A DNA stretch of 64,000 nucleotides from Actinokineospora baliensis. Its GTDB lineage: Bacteria; Actinomycetota; Actinomycetes; Mycobacteriales; Pseudonocardiaceae. The position numbers and the translations under genes were made by a program. Below, piece after piece: positions 9,261 through 18,876 of this stretch; the first letter of the stretch is position 1, and every line of letters begins with the position of its first letter. The notes beneath the pieces are model-generated. The model worked only from the letters and a program-made list of their open reading frames with translations. It made no database searches and was not told the origin of the DNA. The stretch is taken from contig NZ_JAFBCK010000001.1 of assembly GCF_016907695.1 (NCBI RefSeq), forward strand, positions 1,612,001 through 1,676,000, in the 5' to 3' direction.

Positions 9261-11045
9261 ATGAATCGCCGTTGGCCGGTGGGCGTGGACACTGTGCACG
9301 TGGGTGTGGAGCAAGACGGCCGCGCATCGCGGCCCAGGGTTGAGGGGCGCCGGTGGCGGCCGAGTGACGAGCTGACGCTGCGGCTGCTGACGTGGTCGAC
9401 GCGCGTGGTCGGGCTGCTGGCCGTGGTCTCGGTGGTGTTCCCGGTCGGCAGGCGCAGGCTGCGCGACACCATCGGCGGCTGGCTCGACCTGCCCACCGAG
9501 GCGACCGTCGCCGCGGGCGTCGTGGTCCTGGCCAGCGGCGTCATGCTGCTGATGCTCGCCACCGCCCTGCGCAGGCGCAAGCGCAGGGCCTGGCAGGTGA
9601 CGGTCGTGGTCACCGGCCTCATCGCCCTGGCCCACCTCGGCTGGCGGCACGGCATCGGCTCCGGGGTCACCGCCCTCGTGCTGTGCGTCGCGCTGATCGC
9701 CACCCGCGGCCACTTCACCGCCAAACCCGACCCGGTGCACGGCAAGTGGCGGGCGGTCCGGGTCACCCTGCAGCTGTGGGTGGCCGGGTTCCTGGCCAAC
9801 CTCGTGCTGCTGAGCACCACCCCGGCCCGCTTCACCGACAACGCCCCCCTGCTCGACCGGGCGTTGCACGCGCTCCTCGCCCTGATCGGGGTGTCCGGCC
9901 CGGTGCAGCCGGTGCCGTGGCTCGACGACCTCAGCGCCGCCATTGGTCTCGCCTTCGGCGTCGGTGCGCTGCTGCTCGGCGGGTACTACCTGCTGCGCTC
10001 GGCCGAGCCCAAGCAGGGCCTGTCCCCGGGGGCCGAAGGCGGACTCCGGGAGTTGCTGGCCGCGCGCGGCGCCGAGGACTCGCTGGGCTACTTCGCGCTG
10101 CGCAGGGACAAGTCGGTCGTGTTCTCCCCGTCCGGCAAAGCGGCGGTGCCCTACCGGGTCCTCGCGGGCGTCGCGCTGGCCTCCGGCGACCCGCTCGGCG
10201 ACCTGGAGGCGTGGCCGGGCGCCATCGAGCTGTTCCTCGCCGACTGCCGCGACAACGGCTGGATCCCGGCCGTCATCGGCTGCTCCGAACGCGGCGCCAC
10301 GGTCTGGGTGCGCTACGGCCTCGACGCCATCGAACTCGGCGACGAAGCCATCGTCGACGTCCCCGGCTTCACCCTCGACGGCCGCTCCATGCGGGGTGTC
10401 AGGCAGGCCGTCGCCAAGCTCCGCCGCGCGGGCTACGAGGTCACCGTCCGACGCTCCGCCGACCTGGCCGCCGACGAACGCGCCCAGCTGTCCACCCTGG
10501 CCGAACACTGGCGCGGCACCGAGACCGAACGCGGCTTCTCCATGGCCCTGTCCCGGCTGGCCGGCCCCGACGACCCCGACTGCGTGCTGGTCACCGCCAG
10601 CCGCGAGGGCGAGGTCACCGGCCTGCTCCAGTTCGTCCCCTGGGGCCGCGACGGCCTCTCCCTCGACCTCATGCGCCGAGACCGCGCCACCGGCGACAAC
10701 GGCCTCAACGAGCTCATGATCGCCGACCTGCTGGCCGCCTGCCCGGCACTGGGCGTCACCCGCGTATCGCTCAACTTCGCCGTCTTCCGCGCCGCCATCG
10801 AACGCGGCGGCCGCATCGGCGCGGGCCCCGTCGCCCGCCTCTGGGCCAAAGCCCTGCGCGTCGGCAGCCGCTGGTGGCAGATCGAAACCCTCTACCGCTT
10901 CAACGCCAAGTTCGGCCCCACCTGGAACCCCCGCTTCCTGATCTTCCCCGCCGTCCGCGACCTCCCCCGAGTGGCACTGGCCGCGATCGAAGCCGAGGGC
11001 TTCGGCGGCCGCCCACCAGCACTTTTGCGCGCCTTACGCCGCTGA
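9261..11045 (+). CDS. MprF-like phosphatidylglycerol lysyltransferase (DUF2156)
   Basis: About 594 residues. The N-terminal part (about 45-250) has five or six hydrophobic helices. The C-terminal part (about 265-590) is the LPG-synthase/DUF2156 double-GNAT fold, with segments such as [14 protein letters not shown] and GFSMALSRL. Enzymes of this family transfer an aminoacyl group, usually lysine, from charged tRNA to phosphatidylglycerol, making the membrane less negative and more resistant to cationic peptides. It is shorter than MprF of Firmicutes because the large flippase domain is reduced. No lysyl-tRNA synthetase domain is fused, unlike LysX. The start is uncertain: ATG at 9261 or one of several GTG codons downstream. 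Confidence 0.75.
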
Positions 11046-11114
11046 CCGGGGGGCGTTTTGCCCTCCGTCGAGGCACCTGTGTAGTCTTACCTCCCGAGCG
11101 GCCACGGGGCCCCG

Positions 11115-11204
11115 GGAGGCTTCGCCTAGTCTGGTCTATGGCGCCGCACTGCTAATGCGGTTGGGGTTCAAAGCCCCTCCCGGGTTCAAATCCCGGAGCC
11201 TCCG
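11115..11204 (+). tRNA. tRNA-Ser (GCT anticodon)
   Basis: A class II tRNA of 90 nt. Acceptor stem GGAGGCT (11115-11121) pairs with AGCCTCC (11197-11203) with G as discriminator. The anticodon loop CTGCTAA (11149-11155) is closed by CCGCA/TGCGG and gives anticodon GCT. A long variable arm and the T-loop GGGTTCAAATCCC are present. No CCA is encoded. It reads AGC/AGU serine codons. Confidence 0.95.
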
Positions 11205-11239
11205 CTGTACACCCGACCCGTCGGGTGACAACTGAACAA

Positions 11240-11312
11240 GCGCCCGTAGCTCAACGGATAGAGCATCTGACTACGGATCAGAAGGTTAGGGGTTCGAATC
11301 CCTTCGGGCGCG
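11240..11312 (+). tRNA. tRNA-Arg (ACG anticodon)
   Basis: A 73-nt tRNA. Acceptor GCGCCCG (11240-11246) pairs with CGGGCGC (11305-11311). The anticodon loop CTACGGA is closed by TCTGA/TCAGA and gives anticodon ACG; the T-arm contains GGTTCGAATC. A34 must be deaminated to inosine by TadA, whose gene is at 39002 in this window. It lies 35 bp after tRNA-Ser(GCT). Confidence 0.95.
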
Positions 11313-11320
11313 CACGACGG

Positions 11321-11355
11321 CGACCCATGTCCACGGAAAGCGTGGACGTGGGTCG
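11321..11355 (+). terminator. Terminator hairpin after the tRNA pair
   Basis: A 15-bp stem (11321-11335 with 11341-11355, one G-U wobble) and a five-base loop are followed by TTTG. It lies nine bases after tRNA-Arg. Confidence 0.75.
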
Positions 11356-11458
11356 TTTGCGTTGTATCTGGGGGGCGACCCCCCAGGCCCCCACGGTGCG
11401 ATCCCTCTCGACCCAGCGTGGTTCGCTCGGGCCTTCGGCCCTCGCATCGAGTTTGTTG

Positions 11459-11487
11459 CCCACGTCCAGCCGGTGGGTGGACGTGGG
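11459..11487 (-). terminator. Hairpin terminator of the DUF4407 operon
   Basis: CCCACGTCCA (11459-11468) pairs with TGGACGTGGG (11478-11487) across a nine-base loop, just beyond the stop of the leftward DUF4407 gene. Its arms resemble those of the tRNA terminator 100 bp away. Confidence 0.55.
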
Positions 11488-11497
11488 TCTGGGGGGG

Positions 11498-12895
11498 CTA
11501 CTTGGGTGGGTGGGGGAGGGATTGGGATTCCAGGGTGGCGGCTAGGCGGTTGATCTGGGCGGAGTAGGCGATTCGGCGGTGGGCTTTGGCGGTGCGGTCG
11601 GCACCGTCCAGGTCGGCTATCCGGTTCCTCAGCCTTTGGTCCAGGCGCTGGGAGTGGACCCTGAGGTCGACGGTGTCGCGCTTCTCGTTGAGGACCAGGT
11701 GCTCGTCGTGCAGCCTGCGGGCGGTGGCCAACTGGTGGCGCACCTGGTGGTCGTACGCGGTGCTGCCGCTCATCATCTTGGTCAGCACCGGGAGGCAGTC
11801 CAGGGCGACCAGCAGCGCCGCCAGCAGCCAGTGCGCCAACAGCACGATGGTGCTCCGGTCGGACAACCGTTGCAGTGCCTCGAACTCGTCCAGGATGCCG
11901 CTGCCGTCGAGGTTCGCCCGCTTCTCCTGGACCTTCGCCGCGATGGCGGTGCTGGTGGCGCGTTCAGTCGTGTCGCGCGCGGCGGCGAGTTCGCCGGTCA
12001 GCGATTCGACCTGGTGCTGGGCCTCGGCCAGTTCCCGCTGCCGCTGGTCGAGGCCGTGGTCGCGCCGGTAGTCGTCGGCGATGGTTCGGTTGCGCCTGCA
12101 CTCGCCGCCGACGCCGGGTACCCCGGTGGTCCCGGGGCCGGGGACGCCGGTGCACTCGTTCATGGCCAGCTGGTTGAGCCGCGTCCACTCCTGGTCCATC
12201 GCGGCGACGCTGGTCCGCAGGTCGTCGCGGATCCGGGTGGCCTGCGCCAACTGCGTTTCCGTCGCAGCGGGGTTCACCCCGGTGTTGACCAGCGCCCCCG
12301 CACACGCCGCGTCGGCCGGTGCCGGGCCCGAGCTGGGGTTGCACCGTTTGAGGAGGCCCTCGTACGCCTCGACCTCCGCTTTGCGGTGCTCACCGATCTC
12401 GTTCTCGATGGACGTGCCGAACACCGACAGCACCAGCGGTTCGGCGATCACCACGCCGAGCAGCAGGGACAGCACCAGCCGGGGCAGGTAGCGCAGCCAC
12501 GAGCCGGGGCGGGAGCCGTGAGTGCTCGAGATGAGCCAGCTGTCGATGACGACCACGGCGGCCATCCAGATCAGCGCGACCACGCAGGCGGTGGCCCAGC
12601 CCGCACCGGTTGTCTTGCCAACGGCCATCGCCATGGACACCGCGGCGACGATGCCGGTGTTGAGCACGATCGCACCGAGCCGGGTGTAACGGGGACGCTC
12701 CTCCGGGACCCAATCCAGGATGTCCTCGCTCACCCCGACCAGCCTGCGCAGCAACCGCGGAATGCCGCCGCTGGGCCGCACCGGGCGGAACAGGTCGACC
12801 GCGGCGTCGTTGCGCAGCGAGTGCCGGACCGGCCTCGGGTCGGTGACCAGCGGGATGATGTCGGTGCGTTCCAGGTCGCTTGGCTCAGCGCGCAT
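11498..12895 (-). CDS. DUF4407 membrane protein
   Basis: A protein of 465 residues with the DUF4407 layout. A soluble N-terminus is followed by hydrophobic helices (about residues 75-170), a long extracytoplasmic or coiled-coil middle rich in charged and Gln residues, and a final membrane helix near STIVLLAHWLLAALLVALDCLPVL; the C-terminal tail is again charged. Function of the family is unknown. Its start overlaps the stop of the SPFH-like gene by 11 bases and it is the last gene of the five-gene Crp/cyclase/STAND operon. A membrane anchor or pore-like output for that system is inference from position. Confidence 0.75.
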   Translation of the reverse strand: MRAEPSDLERTDIIPLVTDPRPVRHSLRNDAAVDLFRPVRPSGGIPRLLRRLVGVSEDILDWVPEERPRYTRLGAIVLNTGIVAAVSMAMAVGKTTGAGWATACVVALIWMAAVVVIDSWLISSTHGSRPGSWLRYLPRLVLSLLLGVVIAEPLVLSVFGTSIENEIGEHRKAEVEAYEGLLKRCNPSSGPAPADAACAGALVNTGVNPAATETQLAQATRIRDDLRTSVAAMDQEWTRLNQLAMNECTGVPGPGTTGVPGVGGECRRNRTIADDYRRDHGLDQRQRELAEAQHQVESLTGELAAARDTTERATSTAIAAKVQEKRANLDGSGILDEFEALQRLSDRSTIVLLAHWLLAALLVALDCLPVLTKMMSGSTAYDHQVRHQLATARRLHDEHLVLNEKRDTVDLRVHSQRLDQRLRNRIADLDGADRTAKAHRRIAYSAQINRLAATLESQSLPHPPK

Positions 12896-14087
12896 CGTCT
12901 TCCCTCGCCGGTGGGTCGATGACCTCGTCCTCGGGCTGCTCGGCGATGGCCTGCCGCGGCGCGCCGCTGCCTGGCCCGACCAAGGCCTTGACCACCTGGT
13001 CCAGCTGCAGGTTCACCGCATCGATGTGACCCTGCTTGGCCACGGTCTCGATGATCCGGATCCGGGCGTCGAACTCCTGCTCGGCGCGGCGACGCTGCCA
13101 CTGCGCCTCCTGCTCCCGGTCCGCCCGCTCGGTATCGGCACGCATTTTCGCGAGCTCGCGGTCGTGCGCGATCCGCTCGCGCAGATCGGCGCGGTCTTGT
13201 TCCAACTCGGCTGCCCGGTCTTGGCGTTCGCGCTCATGGATCGTGCTCAGCTCCGCGCCGAGTTCCTTGGCAGTGATCTCACCGAGTGCGTAGGCGAGTT
13301 GGAGCGCGCTTACGGCGTCGCCACCGGCCACTTCGACGGCGTGCTCCTTCTCCGCGCGCTGCTGCTCCCGCCGCGCCGCGCTGAGGTCGCTGCTGTGGTG
13401 GGTGCGCACCACTTCGCGGGACTGTTCGAACTGGGTGCGCTGGTCGATCAGCGCCTGTTCGTTGCCCAGCCGCGCAAGCTCGATCAGGTGCTGCTGCTGC
13501 TCGACGCGCTTGGTGTTCTCGTACCCGGCGAGCTCCTCCGGGGTCAGCACCTCGACGCTGGCCAACTCCACGGCGAGGCCCATGATCTCCGCTGGCACCA
13601 CCGTCCAGTACGCGCGGACCTGGGCGTTCACCTTGCGCCGCACCAGGTTGATGTCGTCGAGGGTGAAGTCCAGGCCGAGCTCGTAGAGCCCGTGGTGCCC
13701 CTTGAGGTAGCTGGTGAGAGCGGCACTGGCGTCCACCACCCCCTCCCTGACCACGGCGACCGCGTCGGTCACCGTGCACAGGAACGTCACCCGCACGGTG
13801 AACGAGGCCGCGTCCCGCGCGGGAACAGCCAGCGTCAGCACGACCTCGGCGTTGCCGGTCATGTCCACCACCGACACCCGCGACGCGTTGACCACCCGAC
13901 CGCTGTCCAACGGCAAGTCCTGGGTGTCGAGGAAGAAGGTGCCCGCCGAGCGGTACACCAGCTGCTCGTTGGCCTTCGGCCGGGGCACCTCACCCCACGC
14001 GCGGCCCACGGGCTTGCGCTTGAGGAACGACTTGGCCTGGACCGGCCTGAGTTCCTGTTCGACGACGACCGGGTAACCCCGTTCCAT
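12885..14087 (-). CDS. SPFH/band-7-like protein with long coiled coil
   Basis: A protein of 400 residues. The first about 190 residues read as an SPFH/stomatin-like domain: alternating strands with FTVRVTFLCTVTDAVAVVREG, then LGLDFTLDDINLVRRKVNAQVR and ELASVEVLTPEELAGYENTKRVEQQQHLIELAR. From about 190 to 350 it is almost pure charged/Gln helix (QQRAEKEHAVEV, ERERQDRAAELEQDRADLRERI), clearly a coiled coil. SPFH proteins form membrane-associated rings or cages. No N-terminal membrane helix is seen, so attachment may go through the DUF4407 partner. The ATG at 14087 follows GGAGAAG; 11 bp separate it from the STAND gene. Confidence 0.7.
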   Translation of the reverse strand: MERGYPVVVEQELRPVQAKSFLKRKPVGRAWGEVPRPKANEQLVYRSAGTFFLDTQDLPLDSGRVVNASRVSVVDMTGNAEVVLTLAVPARDAASFTVRVTFLCTVTDAVAVVREGVVDASAALTSYLKGHHGLYELGLDFTLDDINLVRRKVNAQVRAYWTVVPAEIMGLAVELASVEVLTPEELAGYENTKRVEQQQHLIELARLGNEQALIDQRTQFEQSREVVRTHHSSDLSAARREQQRAEKEHAVEVAGGDAVSALQLAYALGEITAKELGAELSTIHERERQDRAAELEQDRADLRERIAHDRELAKMRADTERADREQEAQWQRRRAEQEFDARIRIIETVAKQGHIDAVNLQLDQVVKALVGPGSGAPRQAIAEQPEDEVIDPPAREDDAR

Positions 14088-14098
14088 CGCTGCTTCTC

Positions 14099-16129
14099 CT
14101 ACTTGTCCGAGGGATTGGTGCGCAGGGCGGCCAGGAGCGCGGCCACGATCGGGCCGATGCCGGTGCCCTTGCGGTCGAGGAAGGCCTCGAAGTCCTGCCG
14201 CAGAGCGGCCAACTCCGCGGCGTCGAGCTGGGCGGACAGGGCGGCGCCGAGTGCTTCGGCGCGCGGCCGGGGATCACCTTCGTGCCGCCCCATGCTCTCC
14301 AGCGCGGCGCGCATCGTCCGGATCCCGCTCTGCCGCTCCGGCCGGTGCAGCAGCACGTCCGCCCACAGCCGGGCCACCAGCAGCAGCCGGTCCGGTGCGT
14401 GGTCGAGGAAGCTGACGAACGCGTACCGGCCGGAGGTGGCGTCAGTCGCCGAGAGCACGGCCGCGGTGCAGCGCACGGCCGTCCGGCGCAGTTCGGGGCG
14501 CCTGCCCAGCGGCGGGAACCGGTCGAGCTTGGCCCGCAGGTGCGCGAGCACGAACTCCGCGTCCCCGCCGTTGTGCACGAGGGTGGCGAACAGCTTGCCG
14601 AACAACAGCTCCACCGAGCCGGTCACGGTGTGCGGCTGCGTGCTGATCTGCCACAGCACGTTGACCGCGTCGTGCGGGTACTGCGCGCCGAGCTGACCGC
14701 CGAACGCCGTCGCGCCGACCCAGCGCTGTGCGGGGTTGCCCTGTTTCGACCAGGCAGTGGCGATCTGCAGCGCGCTGGCCGACAGCGCGTCGTCGCGCGC
14801 CATGAACCACAGCGCGTACACCGCGGCCCGTTGCCCCGCGCTGCCGAGCTCGCCCCTCGACCACTCGACGAGCAACGGCAGGACCTCCTCGACCGCCGCC
14901 GAGGCGAACACGGCCAAACCGAACGCGGTGCTGCGCTCGAAGAAGTCCCCCAGCGCCACGATATCGCGCAGGCAGTCGTGCAGGGCGTCCCAGAAGGCAA
15001 CGCCCATCCTGGTCCACAACTGGTTGACCACATGGCGGTGGTGTCCGGGGTCGGCGAACACCAGGGCGCCGCGGCTGCCGAAGGTCGTCGGCAGCCGAAC
15101 CCGGCGGATGAGCGGGTTCCTGTTGTAGAGCAGCCGGTGCTGGGCGAGCCCCGCACCCTCCGAACCCTCCACCGGTGGTTCGGGCACGTGCCGGTCGAGG
15201 TGGCGCAGGAGGACAGCGGTGCTGGACTCCAGGGTCCGCTCATCGGCGCCGGTGGTGAACGCGAGCGCGGCGAGGGTGGCCACTGATGTCCGGTCCGGGC
15301 CCGTGTCGAACCACTGCGCCACTTCCTTGGCCAACCGCGAGTCGAGGTGACCGGTGGCTGAGTCGACCGAGTCCCCCGCGGCCAACCTGGTCGCCAGGGC
15401 CACGGCATCGGCCACGAACTCGATCCGGGCGAGCGCCTCGGCGAGGGACTCGGCCTCGTCGGGTGGCCATGGCACCGACCAGCGGGCCCGCAGCACCCGT
15501 TCGGCATCGGGCGCTGCCCAGGCCAGCTGGGCGACACCGCTGTCGTCCCACGCCCGCGCCGAGGACCCGGTGACCACGAGGAACGCCCCTTGAGCGCGCA
15601 GCCGATCGCGCACCAACAACCACTCGAAGTCGGAGTCGCCCGCCTCTTGGTTCGCGGGCCGGTCCAGCAGCAGGTAGCCGCAGCCCGCGTTGTAGTCCCG
15701 AGTGGACAACTCGGCAAGGGTGACCTGTGGCGAGAGCATGAACAGCGCGTCCCCGGTGACCTCTCTGAGCAGCGCGAGCGCCGACGAGCGCCGTCCGATG
15801 CCCGGCCGACCGCGCAGCACCACGATCTGGTCGGCGACCAGTCGCGTTGCCGCCACGTCGAACACCGCCGGGCGGACGAAGTGCTCGAGTGCGCCGCGGA
15901 TGTCTTTGTCGTCGACCCGCCCGGTCGCCTGGTGCGGCGACGCGGTGCCCGGTCCGCTCGCTCCGAAGACGGCCTGCTGGATGTGGACGTCGCCCTGGAA
16001 GCTGTTGAACAGCGGGCCGAGGTTCTCGCCGTCGAAGGTCTCCGACCTTGTCCGGGGGTCCGCCGGGGTCCTGTGCTCGTCGGGGGTGCCCTGGTCGGCG
16101 GCCGCGGGTGCTCCCCTGAGCTCGGTCAC
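14099..16129 (-). CDS. STAND-like P-loop NTPase with N-terminal short signalling motif, degenerate Walker A
   Basis: A protein of 676 residues. A disordered N-terminus carries a short motif FQGDVHIQQAVFGAS (about 44-58) that resembles the C-terminal end of the upstream cyclase-like protein. A P-loop domain follows: strand VVLRGRPGIGRRSS (103-116) has the Walker A glycines, but arginine (R113) replaces the invariant lysine. GYLLLDRP (D156) is the Walker B strand and FLVVTGSSARAW a sensor-1-like strand. The C-terminal half (about 300-676) is all helical and looks like a HEAT/TPR-type superstructure. This is the domain order of STAND/NLR-like sensors. The GTG at 16129 overlaps the cyclase-like stop (GTGA), so expression is coupled. 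Nucleotide hydrolysis is doubtful. Confidence 0.7.
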   Translation of the reverse strand: MTELRGAPAAADQGTPDEHRTPADPRTRSETFDGENLGPLFNSFQGDVHIQQAVFGASGPGTASPHQATGRVDDKDIRGALEHFVRPAVFDVAATRLVADQIVVLRGRPGIGRRSSALALLREVTGDALFMLSPQVTLAELSTRDYNAGCGYLLLDRPANQEAGDSDFEWLLVRDRLRAQGAFLVVTGSSARAWDDSGVAQLAWAAPDAERVLRARWSVPWPPDEAESLAEALARIEFVADAVALATRLAAGDSVDSATGHLDSRLAKEVAQWFDTGPDRTSVATLAALAFTTGADERTLESSTAVLLRHLDRHVPEPPVEGSEGAGLAQHRLLYNRNPLIRRVRLPTTFGSRGALVFADPGHHRHVVNQLWTRMGVAFWDALHDCLRDIVALGDFFERSTAFGLAVFASAAVEEVLPLLVEWSRGELGSAGQRAAVYALWFMARDDALSASALQIATAWSKQGNPAQRWVGATAFGGQLGAQYPHDAVNVLWQISTQPHTVTGSVELLFGKLFATLVHNGGDAEFVLAHLRAKLDRFPPLGRRPELRRTAVRCTAAVLSATDATSGRYAFVSFLDHAPDRLLLVARLWADVLLHRPERQSGIRTMRAALESMGRHEGDPRPRAEALGAALSAQLDAAELAALRQDFEAFLDRKGTGIGPIVAALLAALRTNPSDK

Positions 16130-16899
16130 CTGGTCGGGCCGAAGTTGTTGCCGAAGATCGCGGTGTCGCTGCGGATCCCGCCGTGCACGACGGTGGCGAC
16201 CGACGGCGGCGCGGCACTGGCGGGCTCCGGCTCGGCACGCGGTCGGTGGTCAACGGGGCCTGGCCGGTCGTCTGGCGGGCTGGGCGGGGTCGGGTCGTCA
16301 GGACCGAGGTCGAGTGGCCCGATGTCGAACTCGGGCAGGTGCAGCCATGCGGTTTCGGTGTACTCCTTCACCCGCACGTCGATCCGCCGGAACTCCTCCG
16401 GGCGGCGCTTGGTGTGGCGCTGGGCGACCAGGTCCGAGTAGAGGGTGTTCGACACGACGAGCACGAGGTTCGCGGCCGGGATGGCGTTCTGCGCCGCCTT
16501 GGCCGCGGGGCTGTCGACCAGGCGGGCTACCGCGACAACGGCCTGGCCGGGGAAACCCCCTGGTCCCCGGCCGACCATGCCCTGGTGCAGCGACAACCGC
16601 AGGCGCAGCCGCGTCTCCTCGGATCGGCCGTGGTTGTGCAACTGCAGCAGGTGGGCCAGTTCGCGGGGGAACTCGTCGATCAGCCTGGACTCGGAGGTGC
16701 CGAGCGGGAGGACGTCGAGTTCGCCGTCCCCGCGCTCCTGCACGCTCCACTCACGGCGGTCGAGACCGGCGGCCGCAGCGGCCTCACCCATCAACTGGTC
16801 GAGGTGGCGCTGCAGGTCTTGCTGCCGCCGGTCGTCGCCGCCGCTGTAGTTCCGCGCGTCGACGCACAGCAGCGACCGGCGGGTGAACTCTTCGCTCAC
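16126..16899 (-). CDS. Class III nucleotidyl cyclase-like protein with C-terminal short motif
   Basis: A protein of 257 residues. The first about 190 residues follow the class III adenylyl/guanylyl cyclase order. D14 in LLCVDARNYS and D58 in the GDG turn (57-59) match the two metal-binding aspartates. LRLSLHQGMVGRGPGGFPGQAVVAVARLVDS matches the usual GLHTG...GYxGxAVNxAARL stretch, but asparagine of the transition-state pair is not conserved. A Pro-rich linker (about 195-230) leads to the terminal motif HGGIRSDTAIFGNNFG (239-254). A Crp/Fnr gene lies just upstream, so a cyclic-nucleotide or ligand circuit is plausible. The GTG at 16899 follows AGGAAG. Enzyme activity is uncertain. Confidence 0.7.
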   Translation of the reverse strand: MSEEFTRRSLLCVDARNYSGGDDRRQQDLQRHLDQLMGEAAAAAGLDRREWSVQERGDGELDVLPLGTSESRLIDEFPRELAHLLQLHNHGRSEETRLRLRLSLHQGMVGRGPGGFPGQAVVAVARLVDSPAAKAAQNAIPAANLVLVVSNTLYSDLVAQRHTKRRPEEFRRIDVRVKEYTETAWLHLPEFDIGPLDLGPDDPTPPSPPDDRPGPVDHRPRAEPEPASAAPPSVATVVHGGIRSDTAIFGNNFGPTR

Positions 16900-16992
16900 A
16901 GTGGACTTCCTGTGTGGTGGGTTGGGAAGGGATGTGGGGAGTCTGTCCGGCTGGTCCGCCGAACACCCTGTAAAAATCCAGAACCAGCGCGA

Positions 16993-17706
16993 TCAGTCCT
17001 CGCCCGCGGCCACGCGCAGCGCGTCGACGTCGTAGAGCAGCAGCCCGCGCCGTCGGGACGTGACCAAGCCCTCGACCTTGAGCGCGCGCCACGCCTGACC
17101 GACTGAGTCCGGCCGCGCTCCGATGAGCTTGCCCATCTCCTCCTGCGTCAGTTCGACTCCCAACTCGACACCCCGGTCCGTGCGCTGACCGTGCTGTTCG
17201 GCCAGTTCCAGCAAGACCCTGGCCAACCGGGTCCGCACGTCGTAGCCCATGAAGTCGAGCCGCCTGCGGTTGGCCCAGGTGAGTCGCTCGGCCATCAGCC
17301 CGCACAGCGCTGCCCAGCCAAGCGGGTGGCGCATGAGGAAGTCGAAGAAGTCCCTGTGCGGCATGACGTGCACGACCAGGTCACCGCACGCGGTCACGGT
17401 CGCGCTGCGCGCACCGTCGCCGAGCGCTGCCATCTCGCCGACCACGTCGCCTGCGAATCGGATGCCCAACAACGACTCCCAGCCGTTGCGGGCCACCGCT
17501 GTCACCTTGACGCAAGCCGACGAGCCGGAATCGGACGAGCCGAGCAGCAGCACGTCCGTGCGCGGTTGCCCTTGCGTCAGCAGGAGCTCACCCGCAGTCG
17601 CGGTTCGCTTGCGTGCCAGTGAGAGCAGTTCGGCCGCGTCCTCGCGGACGAGTCTGGTGAGGAAGGTGCCGGGCAGCCATGTTCCCGGTTGTTCGGTGTC
17701 GTCCAC
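16993..17706 (-). CDS. Crp/Fnr-family transcriptional regulator
   Basis: A protein of 237 residues. A cyclic-nucleotide-binding-type beta barrel covers about residues 15-130 (GDVVGEMAALGDGARSATVTA is the phosphate-binding-cassette region), then a long dimer helix and a winged HTH (about 170-225) with LTQEEMGKLIGARPDSVGQAWRAL. The first gene of a five-gene leftward operon, it precedes a nucleotidyl-cyclase-like gene by 93 bp. The pair suggests that the regulator reads a small nucleotide made or sensed by its neighbour (inference). The GTG at 17706 follows AGGAG. It is divergent from the signal peptidase gene, over 429 bp that hold no convincing gene. Confidence 0.8.
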   Translation of the reverse strand: MDDTEQPGTWLPGTFLTRLVREDAAELLSLARKRTATAGELLLTQGQPRTDVLLLGSSDSGSSACVKVTAVARNGWESLLGIRFAGDVVGEMAALGDGARSATVTACGDLVVHVMPHRDFFDFLMRHPLGWAALCGLMAERLTWANRRRLDFMGYDVRTRLARVLLELAEQHGQRTDRGVELGVELTQEEMGKLIGARPDSVGQAWRALKVEGLVTSRRRGLLLYDVDALRVAAGED

Positions 17707-18051
17707 CAGGGATCTCCTGTTGCGGGCACGTTCGCCCTGAGTCTTGCCCGTCGTCTGGCGTGGACACGCTGCCGATAGCGGTCGGGGCGTTCGTGATGGG
17801 GCGATTTGGTATCACATTGCGCCGACCGGGTGCAATAGGGTGACCGTGCGTGGACATCTGAGAAGTCGAATTACCGCTGGTCGTTTTTCGGCTGTCATGA
17901 GCAAGGTTGTCGCAGGTAGCCGCACTGGTGCGGAATCAGACTCCGCGCGGACGGGAATTCGCGGCGGCGGCGTCGTGAATTCGACGGCGGGTATTCGGAA
18001 TGGCGATAGGCCGTTTGAACCAATCGGCGGAGTCCCGAGCGGACGGCCTGA

Positions 18052-18075
18052 CCGTGCCAGGAGGTGTTGGCACGG
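18052..18075. promoter_or_regulatory. Inverted repeat upstream of the signal peptidase gene
   Basis: CCGTGCCA (18052-18059) and TGGCACGG (18068-18075) form a perfect 8-bp inverted repeat with an 8-bp spacer, about 60 bp before the ATG at 18136. It could be an operator or a leader hairpin. It is the only clear structure in the 429-bp gap 17707-18135. Confidence 0.4.
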
Positions 18076-18135
18076 CCGCGGTGTGCTGGTGGAATGCTGT
18101 GGACCGCTACAGGAGCGGACTTCTGGGGAGCTTTG

Positions 18136-18828
18136 ATGGTCAGGTGGGTTGTGCCCGCTGCGGTTGTCGTGGTGGGGCTGGTTGTTGTGGGGTGGGCGGT
18201 CGTCACGGCTGCGGGGTATGAGCGGTACCGGGAGACTGCGGACTCCATGGCGCCGACGATGACCCGGGGGGACTCGATCAAGGTGTTGGAGATCGAGGGT
18301 GATCAGGTGCGGCGGGGGGACATCATCGTGTTCGCCATGGGCGCGTGGCCGGATGACGAACCGGCTGACGGTGAGCAACTGCTGATCAAGCGCGTGATCG
18401 CGGTTGGTGGGGACGCCGTGGCAGGCGGCGGCGGCGGCCTGACGGTCAACGGGAAGCGGGTTGTCGAGGACTACCTCTTCGATGAGGACCCGAGCATGGC
18501 CCGCCCGTTCGACGCCCAGGTGCCCGCGGGCACGGTGTTCGTCGCGGGCGACTACCGGTCCCTGTCCCGGGACTCCCGCATCTACGCCAGCCAGGGTGCT
18601 ATCCCGTTCTCCCACGTCAAAGGCGTTGTCGTCGAGGTCGACGGGAAGCCGGTTGTGCCGACGAAGGCGTTCACGGCGGCGGGGTTGGCGGGGGAGCCGA
18701 CGGTGGATCGGGCTGATCGGTCGGGGTGGTTGGCGGTGGGGACCGGGGTGTCCCTGGTGGGGGCGATCTGGTTGGTGGTCGGGTTGGTCTGGCGCAAGCG
18801 GCCTAAGGCGAGTGTGCAGGAGGCCTGA
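18136..18828 (+). CDS. Type I signal peptidase (S26)
   Basis: A protein of 230 residues. An N-terminal membrane helix (about 5-27) precedes the catalytic serine S37 in ADSMAPTM, and the general base is K85 in LLIKRVIAVGGD. The GDYRSLSRDSR segment is the conserved box E-like region, and a second membrane helix lies near the C-terminus (about 197-220). The enzyme releases signal peptides of exported proteins outside the membrane. With its extra C-terminal helix this is likely an accessory signal peptidase rather than the housekeeping LepB by the ribosomal-protein locus. The ATG at 18136 follows GGGGAG. Confidence 0.85.
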   Translation: MVRWVVPAAVVVVGLVVVGWAVVTAAGYERYRETADSMAPTMTRGDSIKVLEIEGDQVRRGDIIVFAMGAWPDDEPADGEQLLIKRVIAVGGDAVAGGGGGLTVNGKRVVEDYLFDEDPSMARPFDAQVPAGTVFVAGDYRSLSRDSRIYASQGAIPFSHVKGVVVEVDGKPVVPTKAFTAAGLAGEPTVDRADRSGWLAVGTGVSLVGAIWLVVGLVWRKRPKASVQEA

Positions 18829-18835
18829 GGTGGAG

Positions 18836-18871
18836 GCGTCGGGGAGTCGCGTGCGGACGGCTCCCCGACGC
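18836..18871. terminator. Bidirectional hairpin terminator
   Basis: GCGTCGGGGAG (18836-18846) pairs with CTCCCCGACGC (18861-18871), an 11-bp perfect stem between convergent stops. Confidence 0.7.
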
Positions 18872-18876
18872 TGGTT

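Follow-up and report, generated by a model that had tools for sequence, protein, structure and literature searches.

The cassette described here lies in a 64,000-nucleotide stretch of the Actinokineospora baliensis genome (NCBI RefSeq assembly GCF_016907695.1, contig NZ_JAFBCK010000001.1, positions 1,612,001 to 1,676,000 of the forward strand), which we call the window and within which all positions are counted from its first letter. The host genome is 7.68 Mb in a single contig. Five minus-strand genes follow one another in the window in the order Crp-type regulator, class III cyclase-like protein, P-loop STAND-like protein, SPFH-like protein and DUF4407 membrane protein. A preliminary description, made from the sequence alone, had reported five packed genes with GTGA and 11-bp overlaps; we confirmed this observation and found the arrangement to be conserved beyond one operon. 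Searches of NCBIfam gave weak Crp-family matches and nothing useful for the other four window proteins, and a literature search, with Dyrka 2020 outside its scope, found no paper describing the five-gene set. The features of the locus are as follows.

16993..17706, minus strand: Crp-type regulator, 237 amino acids (Pfam cNMP_binding 4.2e-12, HTH_Crp_2 1.2e-12)
16965..16981, minus strand: putative Crp operator CTGGATTTTTACAGGGT, palindrome CTGnAnnnnTnCAG (conserved intergenic motif and scan with a position weight matrix, PWM)
16940..16945, minus strand: -10-like hexamer CAGACT, 37 bp from the start of the 18-bp motif
16126..16899, minus strand: class III cyclase-like protein, 257 amino acids, with Asp14, Gly57-Asp58, Arg126, Lys178 and Val122
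16147..16200, minus strand: putative coupling motif at the C-terminus of the cyclase-like protein, residues 234-251, VATVVHGGIRSDTAIFGN (motif models that exclude the window; family alignment)
14099..16129, minus strand: STAND-like P-loop ATPase, 676 amino acids (nSTAND3 matches in the family; alignment)
about 15788-15811, minus strand: Walker A of the STAND protein, GRPGIGR-R, Lys replaced by Arg (alignment)
15962..16006, minus strand: putative N-terminal coupling motif of the STAND protein, residues 42-56, inside NSFQGDVHIQQAVFGA (model of the effector C-terminal tails of other loci)
12885..14087, minus strand: SPFH/Band-7-like protein with a long coiled coil, 400 amino acids (AlphaFold2 and fold searches)
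11498..12895, minus strand: DUF4407 membrane protein, 465 amino acids (PF14362 5.4e-75; hydropathy)
11456..18118, no strand: block absent from relatives, between tRNA-Arg and a signal-peptidase-like gene (comparison with relatives)

Conservation of the cassette and its place beside tRNA-Arg

A search with the STAND protein returned 17 homologues, the window protein included; the start of one of them, P0008 of Actinokineospora auranticolor, matches that of the STAND encoded by another genome of the host's genus. A STAND profile run over 346 genomes of the host family matched 134 of them at E<=0.001, mostly weakly. From these, 32 neighbourhoods were taken, 28 of them around strong STAND matches, and annotated with the five window proteins. 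To avoid anchoring on STAND, a second survey of 346 genomes of the family was anchored on the SPFH alignment, and it yielded 31 loci in 30 genomes and in 11 of 46 genera, the window included. All five genes stood in one order at 24 of these 31 loci; a STAND gene was present in 30, the cyclase in 28, DUF4407 in 28 and an adjacent Crp gene in 26. The preliminary description had named a failure of the five homologues to co-occur elsewhere as grounds for dropping its reading, and the opposite was found. Among the remaining loci, L043, L044 and L058 contained another effector and no Crp gene was found in them, L055 was truncated by a contig end, no Crp gene was found in L063 and no DUF4407 gene in L149. 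In four of the 31 loci (L054, L056, L062 and L063), STAND and SPFH were matched by a single open reading frame (ORF), and these fusions argue for a physical complex. L148 is a decayed cassette in which the cyclase lies beside SPFH, STAND has been lost and a DUF4407 fragment remains, with an extra Crp-cyclase pair a few kb away.

The arrangement also occurs outside the host family. A class-level search of 394 genomes matched 38 at E<=1e-10, and 20 further places were taken, 10 strong and 10 weaker. The strong loci (L098-L107), which belong to families other than the host's, held all five genes in 6 of 10 cases (L099, L101 and L104-L107); L098 and L103 were without Crp, L100 was without DUF4407, and L102 was without Crp and cyclase and had another effector instead. 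The weaker loci had Crp-cyclase-STAND in L110, L111, L113, L114, L116 and L117, cyclase-STAND in L112, and cyclase-STAND with a distant, opposite-strand Crp gene in L115. No cyclase was found in L108 or L109 and no DUF4407 gene in any of the ten, and partial SPFH matches were obtained in L108 (5e-6) and L110 (5e-7). A survey of the phylum (296 genomes) gave 4 matches at E<=1e-30, all within the same class.

Comparison with relatives delimited the block that carries the cassette. The closest relative matched positions 10999-11455 at 95.9% and 18119-18874 at 80.1%, with 225 bp replacing the 6.66-kb block, and its matching flank is the DNA around tRNA-Ser/tRNA-Arg. Two more relatives had tRNA-Arg with the same signal-peptidase-like gene close behind it, and three further stretches gave no match to that gene. 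The recognised content of the block is the five cassette genes only. We consider the cassette to be, apparently, a mobile insertion next to tRNA-Arg, the alternative being that the block was lost in the relatives rather than gained in the host. No tRNA-derived att repeat was found at the far end of the block, with the 20 largest of 56 repeat families considered.

Matched tails and exchanged effectors

The C-terminus of the cyclase-like protein and the N-terminus of the STAND protein carry a paired, locus-specific motif of ~20 residues. The likeness within a locus is seen when the two tails of L062 are set side by side (TVHNTFHAEVHANHAVFG and TVHNEFHADVHANHAGFG); another motif type is found at L110 (SFGGSLVGGDQHGVSGG and SFGGSVVAGAQHGVSAG), and loci with quite different motifs (L065 and L110-L116) also pair. 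We built a tail model from 26 cyclase C-terminal tails only, the window's included, and ran it on 9296 sequences, half of them shuffled. Outside the training proteins, the model picked up 11 STAND N-termini at E<=0.084 together with the C-terminus of the SARP protein of L043, and nothing else; the SARP protein of L044 (0.74) followed, beside an ORF unrelated to the cassette (0.75), and no shuffled sequence came before 1.8. The window STAND was not reached by this model in the same 9296 sequences, and the coupling motif was not found in Crp, SPFH or DUF4407 among the matches listed, where the best of these, an SPFH ORF, stood at E=9.6.

Tails were also compared pairwise across 50 loci, or 42 after dereplication below 60% STAND identity. 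The test kept L064 and L067, in which the cyclase assignment is doubtful, and L117, in which the tail cut missed the motif, and all were counted as they fell. Over the 42 dereplicated loci, own tail pairs scored 47.4 versus 28.7 for crossed pairs, a value reached in 0 of 20000 permutations. The own STAND was top-ranked for 19 of these loci and beat the STAND of the nearest relative 31 to 8, with 3 ties (p=3e-4). Given that this last comparison favours the own STAND, phylogeny alone is an unlikely source of the pairing. Scores above the 99th percentile of shuffled tails were obtained for 20 of the 42 pairs. Shared coding DNA was considered as the source of the likeness and rejected: each motif is encoded by its own stretch of DNA, and in 20 well-matched pairs, counted without dereplication, the codons differ at 129 of 305 identical residues, so that a recent copying of DNA does not account for the likeness. 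For the window itself, an effector-tail model to which neither the window nor its clade contributed was scored on the two window proteins and 1000 shuffles of them. The highest score, 9.4 bits, fell on STAND residues 42-56 and the next, 7.6 bits, on cyclase residues 220-250; the best shuffled sequence reached 5.6.

The effector itself is exchanged at some loci. In L043 and L044, from the same family as the host, and in L102, from another family, a BTAD protein (1.8e-14, 2.8e-14 and 4.6e-17, respectively) replaces both Crp and the cyclase. Trans_reg_C scored above its cut-off in this SARP-like effector in L044 only, and the C-terminus of the effector bears the coupling motif as judged by eye. 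That tailed effectors can be exchanged while the STAND-SPFH-DUF4407 core stays constant argues most strongly for the tail as the connecting element, and the pattern of tail sequences leads us to conclude that STAND and effector are very probably coupled tail to tail. Two further loci details concern these variants: the STAND gene of L043 (6966-9011) is broken by an in-frame TAA, and L058 (6581-6967) encodes a 129-residue effector with no Pfam match that ends in a coupling-like motif.

The layout resembles that of BASS signalosomes, in which, according to the parts of the published accounts available to us (a scope that holds for every published system cited here), a motif occurs at the effector C-terminus and the STAND N-terminus of neighbouring genes in filamentous actinobacteria (PMC7889193, PMC8086366, PMC12261475). 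The cassette shares with BASS the adjacent or overlapping effector and STAND genes, the short end motifs common to both, the occurrence in filamentous actinobacteria and the existence of several motif families; at the family level, we found both an effector gene adjoining or overlapping the STAND gene and a similar motif at both ends. Bacterial amyloid signalling has been described with Bell, CHAT and TIR effectors, and its outcome is said there to remain to be explored (PMC7889193), whereas in the cassette a class III cyclase-like protein or a SARP-like regulator takes the effector position; further differences are the nSTAND3-like ATPase, the putative feedback through Crp and the presence of an SPFH/DUF4407 pair. 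One cyclase homologue, P0037 of Paractinoplanes maris (locus L165, which contains two Crp genes, the cyclase and STAND), ends in GIQVGDNNEQNNYRYGR, a tail with IQVGDNN that resembles the RIP homotypic interaction motif (RHIM); NCBI names it a RIP homotypic interaction motif-containing protein, and Pfam RHIM matches it at E=0.0059. By analogy with these systems, we lean towards an amyloid nature for the tail coupling.

The same wiring could be achieved if the tails paired as an ordinary beta-strand or short adaptor, homotypic in the manner of effector-associated domains (EADs), in a stoichiometric rather than self-propagating way. Such domains are common to effectors and NTPases and follow the same logic, which gives this alternative a precedent (Kaur et al., PMC7159879, PMC8195603), and the cyclase homologue P0022 carries EAD2 (PF19956, 7.5e-19). 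All of the motif evidence is sequence pairing, which would suit an adaptor also, but the shortness of the tail (~20 residues), its low confidence in the structure model, the RHIM-like tail of P0037 and the placement at the STAND N-terminus and effector C-terminus fit an amyloid motif better. We consider an EAD-like adaptor unlikely, and retain amyloid-like coupling as the preferred form of the tail-to-tail link.

Crp, its putative operator and the cyclase-like protein

The cassette of the window Crp that binds cyclic nucleoside monophosphate (cNMP), GEMAALGDGARSA, is intact, and the phosphate-binding cassette is retained across most of 47 aligned sequences (Glu in 45, Arg in 44, Ser or Thr in 41), one of which, L004, is a chance hit. 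An 18-bp palindromic motif is conserved in the Crp-cyclase gap of 16 dereplicated loci, scoring 294.8 versus 174-182 in 5 shuffled sets that ran fewer iterations; L057 and L059 have poor sites. A -10-like hexamer, defined by a pattern chosen after inspection of the sequences, was seen in 8 of the 16 loci, the window included, and always exactly 37 bp from the start of the motif. This spacing puts the centre of the operator near -41.5, which we take to be the class II CRP position. Outside the training set, the PWM scored 16.9-20.1 in L100, L101, L104 and L106, set against a background of random pieces of the same loci with a 95th percentile of 9.9 and a 99th of 17.0. The operator is unique in the host genome at 0-2 mismatches, the next three copies having 3 mismatches (reversed control pattern, 1), suggesting that Crp is dedicated to its own operon; a wider Crp regulon in the host genome was rejected for want of a close second copy. 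Class II activation of its own operon by Crp at the putative operator is probable.

This uniqueness also bears on a different role for the cassette, that of a regulatory module for secondary metabolism or development built as a split AfsR-like system. Medium and large SARPs are fused to an NB-ARC STAND (PMC10972967), and the SARP-like effectors of three loci (L043, L044 and L102) likewise associate a STAND module with a Trans_reg_C and BTAD regulator. The two differ in that the cassette makes this link in trans through matching tails, with the SARP occupying the place of the cyclase and Crp. We regard a split AfsR-like system as rather improbable, given that the lack of a further close operator copy in the genome predicts few outside targets, and we keep to a Crp that serves its own operon.

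The class III cyclase homology fold was present in the cyclase-like protein by profile search of the PDB and in a structure model; sequence-only PDB searches for the cyclase and STAND gave nothing useful. In an alignment of 46 sequences, of which those of L064 and L067 are partial and doubtful, the metal-binding Asp14 and Asp58 as well as Arg126 were kept in 44 and Lys178 in 43. The preliminary description of a cyclase-like protein with both metal aspartates holds for the aspartates themselves; it is qualified by position 122, presumably that of the transition-state, catalytic Asn (mapped by eye, as were the presumed base selectors at 54 and 115), which is Val in the window and never Asn in the aligned five-gene members. 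Across the alignment this position is Val in 31, Ile in 4, Asn in 7, Thr, Arg and Asp in 1 each and a gap in 1, so that, of the transition-state Asn and Arg, Arg is present in 44 of 46 and Asn in 7 of 46, the latter confined to 7 of the 8 loci L110-L117. With the metal and phosphate residues kept, the Asn lost and the base pocket changed, the protein may have an altered specificity, a low activity or a binding role, and we would give cyclase activity in the window clade even odds. PycC cyclases have other base residues (PMC11224242).

Alternatively, the cyclase-like protein could be catalytically inactive and serve as a nucleotide sensor or as a scaffold, with Crp answering cNMP from elsewhere and the cassette only tuning transcription. 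The contrast between the loss of the Asn in five-gene members and its retention in L110-L117, together with the changed base pocket, would fit this, and inactive cyclase domains have been noted in related systems (Kaur et al., PMC7159879); such a protein would not be expected to keep both metal aspartates, Arg126 and Lys178 as widely as it does, nor to be accompanied so regularly by an adjacent Crp gene with its pocket kept. We hold this view to be doubtful, and a cyclase of altered specificity is carried forward below. In L051-L054, L062 and L165, two Crp genes stand ahead of a divergent cyclase; that of L051-L054 and L062 has Arg at a base-selecting position, and the operator motif is missing there. 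In P0036, a cyclase-like domain is fused to a protein-kinase-like domain.

A proposed switch and its relation to known systems

The window STAND scored 14.1 bits with Pfam nSTAND3 versus a cut-off of 27.2; in the STAND alignment, 23 of 29 members matched nSTAND3 at E<=0.1 (best 1.2e-7), and the Walker A Lys is present in at least 90% of rows. GR at Walker A also occurs in the STAND proteins of L098, L099, L104 and L106. The AlphaFold2 model of the SPFH protein has strands and helices, followed by helices at 183-253 and 273-351, and its nearest Foldseek matches were prohibitin, HflK/C and QmcA, or erlin and prohibitin by Z (7-8.6, modest); a profile search with SPFH against the PDB gave nothing useful. 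DUF4407 has four transmembrane-like segments (73-95, 97-127, 133-164 and 347-379) and a long loop containing four Cys residues (185, 198, 248 and 266). From co-occurrence and the STAND-SPFH fusions, we infer that the SPFH/DUF4407 pair is a sensor platform. SPFH C-termini repeatedly end in acidic residues, as in VREEDA, which could be another short docking motif.

Collectively, our findings suggest, with a probability of about 0.6, that the cassette is a conserved, apparently mobile, STAND-controlled signalling switch. The preliminary idea of a sensor-signal-effector unit gained support from the co-occurrence of the genes, their block-wise absence in relatives and the locus-matched tails; that reading stood as far as a signalling unit is concerned and had not included the motif that couples the tails, the exchange of effectors or the putative operator. 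In the mechanism that we propose, the SPFH/DUF4407 pair would make up a membrane assembly by which a cue is presented or sensed. STAND would then oligomerise, and its N-terminal tails would seed a cross-beta stack (amyloid, BASS/RHIM-like) to which the effector tails are drawn. Class III cyclases are active as dimers, and the recruited tails would bring cyclase domains together to make a cyclic nucleotide; Crp would bind it and activate its own operon, giving an all-or-none switch. At the SARP loci, the same tail step would cluster the transcription factor directly. In its fullest form, which we put forward tentatively, this would be a prion-like, self-propagating and possibly heritable switch of second messenger and transcription rather than of cell killing, in which an NLR-nucleated amyloid leads to an altered-specificity class III cyclase and Crp autoactivation, SPFH/DUF4407 serve as a membrane sensor, and the amyloid plug takes either a cyclase or a transcription factor. 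The odds behind our wording on tail coupling, amyloid nature, class II activation, cyclase activity and defence are judgements and were not computed.

Several observations weigh against this interpretation. As regards the tails, 22 of the 42 dereplicated pairs stayed within the range below the 99th percentile for shuffled tails, the window's own pair was weak pairwise (score 33, rank 20 of 50), and a pooled motif model made without the window clade missed the window cyclase tail (1.8 bits, rank 7). The amyloid reading draws on the arrangement and on one RHIM match below threshold (16.6 bits versus a cut-off of 20), and the STAND beside P0037 is without a clear RHIM, showing only a loose TTVGDGS by eye. 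The window STAND has Arg in place of the Walker A Lys, and the case for sensing by SPFH-DUF4407 is one of gene context. Val, Ile, Thr or Arg at the Asn position makes cyclase activity in five-gene members doubtful, and their base-selecting positions are mostly Gln and Gly. Finally, operator scores were weak in L098 (10.6), L103 (12.7) and L107 (7.2), the matches in L099 (14.4) and L105 (12.9) were on the opposite strand, and no operator was found within 350 bp of the cyclase in the two-Crp clade and L110-L117.

Pycsar, too, has a class III cyclase fold adjoining a cNMP-binding protein, and we considered whether the cassette could be a Pycsar-type anti-phage abortive-infection system with the cyclic nucleotide as the infection alarm. 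Its patchy spread (30 of 346 genomes, 11 of 46 genera), its position beside a tRNA and the resemblance of Crp to PycTIR models over the cNMP domain (1.5e-10) would be in keeping with that. The receptor of the cassette, however, is a DNA-binding Crp (Pfam cNMP_binding and HTH_Crp_2) with no TIR or transmembrane part and no fused toxic effector, the output looks transcriptional, no cyclase was found in the SARP loci, and 0 of 28 cyclase-family members matched any PADLOC model at E<=0.1, on which count Pycsar and other PADLOC systems were rejected. We judge a Pycsar-type system to be highly improbable and a defence role of any kind to be unlikely, and continue to favour a signalling switch.

Conflict systems of the VMAP/iSTAND/EAD kind, in which cyclase and Band-7 domains turn up together (Kaur et al., PMC7159879, PMC8195603), are alike in linking a STAND-type NTPase, a cyclase and Band-7, in an occasional CRP-like gene, in paired adaptors and in their occurrence in multicellular bacteria. 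The cassette differs from them in using a short motif, not EAD or Death-like domains, and in having no MoxR or vWA; a MoxR-vWA ternary conflict system was rejected, as no MoxR or vWA Pfam match was found in the five proteins. The five-gene operon was not found in the available parts of the 2020 and 2021 accounts by Kaur et al. (PMC7159879, PMC8195603). In logic, the cassette is closest to BASS signalosomes and EAD-coupled conflict systems. Wiring of the BASS kind leads here to a cyclic-nucleotide enzyme fold with a cNMP receptor or, at the SARP loci, straight to a transcription factor, so that an ordinary promoter reporter could serve to read its outcome. With its exchanged effectors, matched tails and putative feedback site, the cassette makes the question of bacterial prion-like switches directly testable.

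DUF4407 gains a working context from the cassette. The host genome contains two other DUF4407 genes (L004 and L005), whose neighbours were named by eye; one adjoins kinase- and phosphatase-like genes, and the other adjoins a CHAT-like peptidase and an alpha/beta-hydrolase.

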